This document shows, piece after piece, positions 9,299-31,618 of a stretch of DNA of 36,184 nt (positions are counted from its first letter, which is position 1; each line of letters begins with the position of its first letter). Location: the IMG/VR virus record IMGVR_UViG_3300047476_000379, positions 1-36,184 of that record. One strand, given 5' to 3'. This DNA comes from a virus. The translations under genes and the position numbers were made by a program. The notes under the pieces are model-generated. The model did not search any database. It was not told the origin of the DNA and saw nothing but the letters and a program-made list of their open reading frames with translations.

Positions 9299-9517
9299 TT
9301 ATCTTCTTCTTCTGTTTAGCTGGTTAAGCATATTCTTGTGTTCGGTCTCTTGCTGTTTAGCCTTGTCTTCCTGTTCTTTCACCCATTCATTGAGCATATC
9401 CACATAGACATGTTTCTCCCATGGCATTAGACTTTCAACTTCACTTAGGCTCCACTTATGATGGTGTATCAAGTTAAAGTTTGACTTAATGATATTGGCT
9501 AATGAGTCATGACCCAT
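9299..9517 (-). CDS. Small baseplate/tail assembly ORF, probably made as a -1 frameshift extension
   Basis: The 72-residue frame (MGHDSLANIIKSNF...) is helical and ends in a very charged stretch (EQEDKAKQQETEHKNMLNQLNRRRR). A motif SLMPWEKHVYVDML resembles the small baseplate assembly protein found after gp26 in T4-like phages. There is no purine-rich ribosome site before its ATG. The frame is continuous with the -1 frame of the upstream gp26-like gene through the T7 run at 9526-9532, so the likely product is a 313-residue fusion (10239 to 9299). It could be the counterpart of T4 gp51, but similarity is too weak to say. Confidence 0.65.
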   Translation of the reverse strand: MGHDSLANIIKSNFNLIHHHKWSLSEVESLMPWEKHVYVDMLNEWVKEQEDKAKQQETEHKNMLNQLNRRRR

Positions 9518-9519
9518 TA

Positions 9520-10239
9520 TCAGATAAAAAAATCAAAGAAGTCTGTATACCTCACATGATGCTGAAAGCCACACTTAGGACAAGTTGCTTCGATCTTGGC
9601 TGCCACAGTAGGGAACTTATCGATATAATCTTCCAGCTTCTTATAGTTTTCTTCGGTCAGACCTTCAACAAAGTCCTTTAACTCGTCCGTTGTGTAGTCT
9701 TTATATGAGTGCATTCCGTTTTTGTCGTAAACATACTCAATTGAACTAACGATGATGAAAGTCTTTTTATCGATCTCTGGTAGTTCCTCGACCTTTCGCA
9801 TAATGCTGTAGTTTGGATATCGCATCTTAACACCAGCGGCCGGGCCTAACTTGATATCATTAGAAACGTCTTGCTTGATTAACTCGACCTTGCCAATGTC
9901 CATCTCGGCCTTGAACTCTTGACCGCAGGTTTCACCATCAACCACATTGTTACAGGTCAATCTAACCTCTACCGATTCGGCTACCGACTTACCTCTCAAA
10001 AAGGTAAAGAGGTAATCAACGTCAAAGAATGGCATCTTATCAACATCAAGGTCACCGTCTAATATACAGTTATTGATTACCTGTCTAACCGTTGTGATGA
10101 TTTCCGATTGAACTCTGGATTCAACCGCCATCAATAACATCTTTTCTTCTTTCACGGTGAACGGTCTAACTCTAATGTTCTTTCCGCTGGATGGTATAGT
10201 TACTTCATAAGCAGGCAATTCAATCTTAGGCAATGCCAT
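9520..10239 (-). CDS. 26: gp26-like baseplate protein (tail assembly chaperone type)
   Basis: A 239-residue protein of the T4 baseplate gp26 type: the N-terminus ALPKIELPAYEVTIPSSGKNIRVRPFTVKEEKMLL is typical of this family. Four Cys (96, 105, 220, 223; the last two as CPKC) could form a zinc ribbon across the two ends of the protein. The ribosome site GGAGA precedes the start. It ends FFDFFI in a slippery T-run. In lambda-like phages the equivalent gene pair (G and GT) uses a -1 frameshift and chaperones the tape-measure protein; the same logic may apply here. Family assignment is from sequence pattern and place in the operon. Confidence 0.7.
   Translation of the reverse strand: MALPKIELPAYEVTIPSSGKNIRVRPFTVKEEKMLLMAVESRVQSEIITTVRQVINNCILDGDLDVDKMPFFDVDYLFTFLRGKSVAESVEVRLTCNNVVDGETCGQEFKAEMDIGKVELIKQDVSNDIKLGPAAGVKMRYPNYSIMRKVEELPEIDKKTFIIVSSIEYVYDKNGMHSYKDYTTDELKDFVEGLTEENYKKLEDYIDKFPTVAAKIEATCPKCGFQHHVRYTDFFDFFI
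9526..9532 (-). promoter_or_regulatory. Putative -1 ribosomal frameshift site (T TTT TTT)
   Basis: On the minus strand the last codons of the gp26-like gene read GAT TTT TTT ATC TGA. A run of seven T lets two Phe codons slip back one base. Reading then continues TAT CTG ATA ATG directly into the downstream 72-residue frame with no stop. The site lies four bases before the zero-frame stop. Confidence 0.65.
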
Positions 10240-11772: not shown

Positions 11773-12228
11773 ATGGCATATGATTACAAACAAGGCTTTT
11801 TCAAGCCAAAGTTTCCTAAGAAGTATATCGGTGATCCTACCAATATCGTGTATAGGTCTGGATGGGAAAAGAGGGTGATGGACTCTCTTGATAGTAATAC
11901 TAATGTGGTGAGGTGGGCCTCCGAAGAAGTGGTAATACCATATATTTCACCTATAGATAACCGACCTCATAGGTACTTTGTGGACTTCTATGTCGAGGCC
12001 AAACTACCAGATGGCTCTATTAAGAAGATGCTATTAGAGGTCAAACCAGCCGCACAGACAAAACCACCCAAAGCACCTAAGAGAAGAACCAAGAGATATC
12101 TCTCCGAGGTCATGACATATGGTGTGAATGAAGCAAAGTGGAAGGCAGCCAAAGAGTTTTGTTTAGATAAGGGCTGGGAGTTCCGTATTATTACCGAAGC
12201 CGAACTCTTTAAAAAACCTACTAAATAA
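11773..12228 (+). CDS. 4: Head completion protein gp4 (TnsA-like nuclease fold)
   Basis: The 151-residue protein begins MAYDYKQGFFKPKFPKKYIGDPTNIVYRSGWEKRVM, the standard opening of T4 gp4 (gp50) head completion proteins. The restriction-endonuclease-like residues are visible: Glu32 in SGWEKRV, Asp in RYFVDFYVEA and the E-x-K pair in LLEVKP. In T4 it acts after DNA packaging when heads are finished for tail joining. Context agrees with T4, where gene 4 precedes 53 and 5. The ribosome site is GCAGAGG before the ATG. The gene is the first on the plus strand after the divergent gap. Confidence 0.87.
   Translation: MAYDYKQGFFKPKFPKKYIGDPTNIVYRSGWEKRVMDSLDSNTNVVRWASEEVVIPYISPIDNRPHRYFVDFYVEAKLPDGSIKKMLLEVKPAAQTKPPKAPKRRTKRYLSEVMTYGVNEAKWKAAKEFCLDKGWEFRIITEAELFKKPTK
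12221..12227 (+). promoter_or_regulatory. Possible late-type box CTAAATA
   Basis: CTAAATA overlaps the stop of gp4 and lies only 4 bases before the next ATG (12232), so a transcript from it would lack a leader for that gene. It could serve the genes further down, or be chance overlap with a Lys/stop codon pair. Confidence 0.25.
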
Positions 12229-30826: not shown

Positions 30827-31618
30827 ATGGAAATTGAATTTGATCTACAAAATGACTTTAGTGAAGTAGAAGAATATGACTTTGGAAACGGACCAGTACC
30901 AGCACACCGCCACCCTCGTGGTGGTGGCTGGGTGGCAAACACAGCTTCGGTTGATGATACTTGCTATGTCGGACCATATGCCAGAGTTTTTGAGAATGCC
31001 CAAGTAAGCGGTAGTTCTATCATCAATGATGGTGCTTCCGTATTCGGTAATGCTACAGTATGCCTTGGTTCAAGAGTTTATGGTGATGCCATGGTATATG
31101 ATAGCGCCTCGATTAGAGATAACGCCAGAGTAAGTGGTTTCAGTAAAGTATATGGTAATGCCAGGGTCATGAACAATGCCCAGATATATGAGAACGCTGA
31201 AATCTATGACAATGCCATTGTATGTAACAATGCTGAAATCTATGATAACTGTAAAGTTTATGGCAATGCTTACATCTATGAGTGTATCAGATTGTATGGT
31301 CACACGGTAGTTACCAGAAAGCCACTACTTGGTCTTGGTTTTGATTACCCAGTAACCGTCACCGATCATCATGTTCTATTAGGTTGCACGGTGGCTCCAC
31401 CATCAATACTAAAAAAACTCGGTAGAAGAATTATAACCATGATCGGTTATGATAGAGAAACCGCCGAGTTATGGTTGGATATCGTTTCTAAACTTATTGA
31501 GGTGCATGGTTGTACCGATATCGAGGAAGAACTTACACCAGAGAATGAACGCAATATCATTTTGAACCTAATAACAGAGAGAAATGCCGGCAGTGACAGA
31601 GATTCGAGAACCAGATAA
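30827..31618 (+). CDS. Left-handed beta-helix (hexapeptide repeat) protein in the fibre cluster
   Basis: 263 residues. A short acidic N-terminus is followed by HPRGGGWVANTASVDDT and then about 130 residues (35-165) of hexapeptide units of the [LIV]-[G/N]-x-x-[A/S]-x type: ARVFENAQVSGSSIINDGASVFGNATV and so on. These predict a left-handed beta-helix like those of polymer-forming and acyltransferase families. A helical C-terminal domain (about 190-263) follows. No catalytic His of the known acetyltransferases can be assigned. In phages such helices can be fibre or spike parts, or enzymes; the location among tail genes suggests a structural or fibre-assembly role. The last 35 bases overlap the next gene. 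Confidence 0.7.
   Translation: MEIEFDLQNDFSEVEEYDFGNGPVPAHRHPRGGGWVANTASVDDTCYVGPYARVFENAQVSGSSIINDGASVFGNATVCLGSRVYGDAMVYDSASIRDNARVSGFSKVYGNARVMNNAQIYENAEIYDNAIVCNNAEIYDNCKVYGNAYIYECIRLYGHTVVTRKPLLGLGFDYPVTVTDHHVLLGCTVAPPSILKKLGRRIITMIGYDRETAELWLDIVSKLIEVHGCTDIEEELTPENERNIILNLITERNAGSDRDSRTR

Follow-up and report, generated by a model that had tools for sequence, protein, structure and literature searches.

In the virus sequence analysed here (IMG/VR record IMGVR_UViG_3300047476_000379, positions 1 to 36,184; the whole stretch of 36,184 nucleotides is referred to as the window), a -1 ribosomal slip very probably takes place on a run of T's close to the end of gene 26, yielding a longer form of a tail-building chaperone in which gp26 continues into a domain of the gp51 family. 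We hold with high confidence that the locus as a whole is best explained as a two-form tail assembly chaperone, made through a -1 slip at the heptamer U_UUU_UUU. This frameshift strategy is common to most of the T4-superfamily phages that we sampled, and T4 itself is not one of its users.

The gp26-gp51 locus is read from the minus strand of the window. The earlier note on this DNA had the letters and coordinates of the gp26 end right and omitted the strand: the last codons are GAT TTT TTT ATC TGA, with the DNA heptamer TTTTTTT at 9532-9526. Following a slip, reading would resume in the re-read last U as TAT CTG ATA ATG, to give the peptide FFYLIMGHD..., and the -1 frame is open, as that note had also seen, through to the stop of a downstream open reading frame (ORF) of 72 amino acids. 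The long form would therefore comprise 238 + 75 = 313 residues, and the production of 239- and 313-residue proteins by programmed -1 frameshifting, first proposed in that note, is also our best reading of the letters. The gene for gp26 begins at ATGGAGATATATT-ATG and has its own Shine-Dalgarno site, GGAGA, while none is present before the ATG of the small ORF (the preceding letters are ACTTCTTTGATTTTTTTATCTGATA), which agrees with the earlier description of that ORF as lacking a ribosome site; its ATG lies two bases past the gp26 stop (TGATAATG). Only two in-frame X_XXX_XXZ sites occur in the 10,431 codons of the 25 window genes, and the gp26 heptamer is one of these, positioned 3 codons from the gene end and followed in the -1 frame by a homologous gene. 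The other is an A7 run (A_AAA_AAA) at window positions 31411-31417 on the plus strand, codon 195 of 264, which sits in the middle of ORF 30827-31618, where no frameshift partner was recognised.

To this single locus we added 220 distinct gp26 junctions from relatives and looked for the gp51 domain in each of the three frames. The domain was detected in 217 of them, in every case in the -1 frame (217/217). The motif U_UUU_UU[U/C] stands in register in 211 of the 220 (U_UUU_UUC in 144 and U_UUU_UUU in 67), and one sense codon separates the slip site from the stop in 187 of 214. Across 47 clusters, with less than 50% amino acid identity, the T6 run was kept in 46 against 20.8 expected from the codon usage of each gene and the residues that the site encodes (P ~ 8 × 10-19, a value that serves as a guide and is not exact because the clusters remain partly dependent). 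This conservation of slip site and frame makes chance very unlikely, and the expectation of the earlier note that T-run and frame relation would recur in relatives is strongly borne out. Every usable locus of an initial set of environmental relatives, together with S-SSM7 and DLP6, shows the T-run and the -1 relation, and isolates that have both include Kyanoviridae, Pelagibacter phage HTVC008M, Sinorhizobium phages phiM7 and phiN3 and Variovorax phage V45v66, as well as Aeromonas phage phiAS5, Citrobacter phage Ci1, Vibrio phage D525, Pseudomonas phage Astolliot and Stenotrophomonas phage DLP6. In Rhizobium phage RHph_I34 the -1 relation is present and the T run is followed by G. In one contig, L235, the gp26 frame is broken early although an intact gp51 still follows in the -1 relation; this is probably an assembly indel.

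The start of the gp51 domain offers a second line of evidence. No ATG, GTG or TTG occurs within the first eight -1 codons in 67 of 213 relatives, which correspond to 30 of 46 clusters, and in these gp51 is therefore plausibly made by frameshifting only. From the slip site onward, the gp51-domain proteins of the relatives can be aligned without gaps for roughly 26 residues, and the alignment column that holds the window's Met contains M in 117, L in 64, F in 17 and I in 9 of them. This column is a hydrophobic position, not generally a start. Separate ribosome sites for the small ORF, which the earlier note had named as evidence against a fusion, were not found in the relatives, many of which do not have even a start codon. 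Because the start codon is absent, gp51 has been missed or shortened in many annotated records. Among the loci L061, L063, L068 and L069, Salmonella phage SJ2 and Klebsiella phage T765 have an unannotated gp51-like domain with no nearby start codon (L063:2690-2905, L069:2750-2970), and K475 and VAP7 have an overlapping TAATG at the gp26/gp51-like junction.

In profile searches, the 239-residue protein belongs to the T4 gp26 family (PF12322, E = 3e-52, with 177.9 bits against a curated cut-off of 24.5 over residues 9-238; phrog_150, E = 1.5e-58). The 72-residue ORF has its match in phrog_634, the gp51 family ('baseplate hub assembly catalyst'), over positions 60-119 of the 121 in that profile (E = 3.9e-22); in our reading it is the C-terminal domain of the 313-residue protein. 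The N-domain in an AlphaFold2 model of gp26 (mean predicted local distance difference test score, pLDDT, of 90) was compared by fold in a second look with VIA-align, on which the chaperone assignment rests. Three entries come out on top: 3fgx with Z = 8.1, then 2ob9, the HK97 tail assembly chaperone, with Z = 7.5, and 5ir0 with Z = 5.1; the next, unrelated match has a Z of 2.5. The entry 5ir0, one of the three best fold matches of gp26, is ORF19 of a Vibrio cholerae phage-inducible chromosomal island (PICI)-like element and has no assigned function; this satellite protein may be chaperone-like. For T4, the list of hub assembly chaperones includes both gp26 and gp51, the latter being required yet not part of the particle (PMC3004832). 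In lambda, the short part of the chaperone binds the tape measure and the extension binds the tube protein, and the chaperone is not in the virion (PMC5009743). The two-form reading of gp26 and gp26-gp51 follows from the chaperone roles in T4 together with the predicted fold of the N-domain. Given this HK97 chaperone-like N-domain in the model, the two products appear to be a genuine pair of the G/GT type rather than the work of a baseplate gene that mimics it. The earlier note had described G/GT logic copied into a baseplate gene; the G/GT-type pair stands, and the notion of borrowing gives way to the T4 listing as hub chaperones, the predicted chaperone fold and the fused form of T4 gp51 described below.

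We envisage that the majority of ribosomes would terminate at TGA and release gp26 of 239 residues, and that a fraction would slip by -1 at U_UUU_UUU, with the P- and A-site tRNAs re-pairing on UUU. The slipped ribosomes would bypass the stop and append the gp51 domain, resulting in the 313-residue protein. In such a scheme the short tail assembly chaperone would be gp26 and the long one gp26-gp51, operating as their lambda counterparts do, and by analogy with gpG/gpGT the two forms may act on the tape measure and on tube or hub proteins. Sequences resembling a Shine-Dalgarno site are enriched 6-18 nucleotides upstream of the slip site, where 59% of representatives fall at or below the 10th percentile of control positions; as a stimulator they are just suggestive, because their position varies and they overlap with a conserved Gly-Leu motif.

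Several observations weigh against a programmed frameshift of this kind or temper it. We infer slippage, its rate and the fusion product from conservation. The chaperone fold is that of a predicted structure with middling Z values, and Foldseek alone gave no significant fold match for gp26 (2ob9 at probability 0.82, E = 0.58). Three deep relatives, in Ackermannviridae and Vibrio phage K475, have no canonical slip site. A strong or conserved downstream RNA structure was not found when the 60 nucleotides past the slip site were folded and compared with shuffles in 46 representatives (mean z of -1.3, 26% below -2), and a hairpin in the window, TAATGGGTCATGACTCATTA, is by eye not preserved in close relatives; folding is barely better than in shuffles, and we thus claim neither a pseudoknot nor a stem. 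Finally, the ATG two bases past the stop in the window leaves room for gp51 to be made as a separate protein by termination and reinitiation, with the T-run incidental, and 138 of 213 relatives have an ATG no more than eight codons from the slip. We nevertheless consider such reinitiation very unlikely, since it has no place for the 30 of 46 clusters without any of the three start codons, the Met position is a general hydrophobic column, the gp51 ORF has no Shine-Dalgarno site, T4 gp51 joins the gp26 and gp51 parts in frame in a single chain, and the in-register T6 excess would be left unexplained. As a separate observation, the Ackermannviridae, with SJ2 and T765 among them, have a gp51-like domain (a weak match) in the -1 frame after gp26, again without a canonical slip heptamer.

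Somewhat less improbable, although still unlikely, is that both routes operate in the phages that keep the ATG, with the long form coming from frameshifting and a third product, some free gp51, from reinitiation. The ATG two bases past the stop is indeed kept by most phages closely related to the window, but many relatives, among them L026, which is fairly close, get by with a start-less gp51, so that free gp51 is not generally needed, and Leu, Phe and Ile occur as alternatives to Met at that column. An RNA polymerase that added one U in the T-run would produce the same frame as a -1 ribosomal slip, and the site is homopolymeric. Transcriptional slippage usually requires longer homopolymer runs than T6, however, and most relatives (144/220) have just six T and then C, in a fixed register, xxT TTT TTY, that suits tandem tRNA slippage; we regard this route as even more improbable than plain reinitiation. 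Homopolymers are also prone to sequencing error, and a single gene could be split in the assembly by a miscounted run, but the identical stop and frame relation in 217 relatives, finished isolate genomes included, reduces the probability of such an error to nearly nothing. Sequencing error, transcriptional slippage and plain reinitiation were set aside.

The programmed -1 frameshift can also be compared with T4, where gp26 and gp51 are separate genes in divergent orientation. In T4 gp51 (249 residues), residues 1-201 match PF12322 and residues 147-246 match phrog_634, and the protein is colinear through the junction with a profile of virtual frameshift products (E = 6e-14). T4 gp51 is hence the in-frame equivalent of the frameshift product, a gp26-like part joined to gp51. 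In T4-type gp26, the slip position reads GAG/GAA TTC TTY in 7/7 records, which represent few lineages and of which two have no subfamily name; Phe-Phe is kept and T6 is absent. It seems reasonably probable that the U6 -1 frameshift is ancestral for the gp26/gp51 pair across the T4 superfamily, here spanning phages of cyanobacteria, Rhizobium, Pelagibacter, Aeromonas, Vibrio and Pseudomonas, and that the Tevenvirinae swapped it for gene duplication, in-frame fusion and inversion, with the slip site then decaying. An unrooted tree places the N-domains of Tevenvirinae gp26 and gp51 apart from the frameshifting set with no more than 85/9 support, and does not settle the direction of change. If the ancestral reading is true, then gene 51 outside the Tevenvirinae is a frameshift extension of gene 26 that is often mis-annotated or missed.

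Table 1. Features of the gp26-gp51 locus in the window
Feature	Position	Strand	Basis
gp26 short form, TAC-N like, 239 residues	9520..10239	-	PF12322, phrog_150, AlphaFold2 model
Slip heptamer U_UUU_UUU, its register allowing a tandem -1 slip	9526..9532	-	Direct reading; relatives
TGA, 0-frame stop of gp26, one codon past the slip site	9520..9522	-	Direct reading
-1 frame extension, 75 residues after Phe238 (putative)	9302..9525	-	Alignment of relatives; colinearity with T4 gp51
Small ORF, 72 residues from ATG, gp51 by homology	9299..9517	-	phrog_634

On the same strand, just upstream of gp26, are a tail-tube-like gene and a tube-cap gene, and the downstream gene encodes an 882-residue protein with a lysozyme-like domain, which is a candidate for the tape measure; in HTVC008M, the putative tape measure is one gene further on. 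The window also encodes gp32, gp4, gp2 and baseplate wedge genes, and the virus is therefore a T4-superfamily phage. The gp4-like head-closure protein (window positions 11773-12228, plus strand; phrog_218) also matches the N-terminal domain of TnsA-like endonucleases (PF08722, E = 1.9e-23).

Vladimirov, Gautam and Davidson, whose 2022 work (PMID 34826709) is represented here through the papers that cite it, are said to have identified the chaperone genes of T4-like phages. According to the passages in question, some T4-like phages have a short gene and a fused long gene (PMC10885494, citing Vladimirov et al. 2022), and poly-T slip sites are cited as known in the TAC-N genes of T4-like phages (PMC12846349). 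From these statements in citing papers, the frameshift of the T4 superfamily has probably been described already, at least in part. We found no description of a gp26-gp51 frameshift in cyanophages in the literature searched, the reach of which did not extend to Vladimirov et al. 2022, and the DLP6 paper lists gp26 and gp51 and does not mention a frameshift. The present analysis corrects a common practice in T4-superfamily genomes, where gp51 is usually annotated as a gene that stands alone.

The classical G/GT frameshift is described in a review as conserved among long-tailed phages 'except T4' (PMC5009743). The window locus resembles lambda gpG/gpGT (PMC5009743) in that it adjoins tail-tube genes and in the predicted HK97 chaperone fold of the gp26 N-domain, but the slip site is U_UUU_UU[U/C], gp26 is longer and has extra domains, the extension is of the gp51 family, and the T4 counterparts of gp26 and gp51 are known for hub assembly. 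A poly-T site is likewise the place of a conserved -1 frameshift in the myovirus chaperone gene of phage Adele and of the Vandenendeviridae and Andersonviridae, although these are other phage families and the slip motif is GTTTTT (PMC12846349). T4 shares both protein families with the window, and its gp51 corresponds to the fused long form; there, however, the long form has its own divergent gene and gp26 has no slip site, whereas the window has one locus with a slip site. The two arrangements thus provide a natural comparison, inside one phage superfamily, of frameshifting and separate genes as ways to supply two forms of a chaperone.
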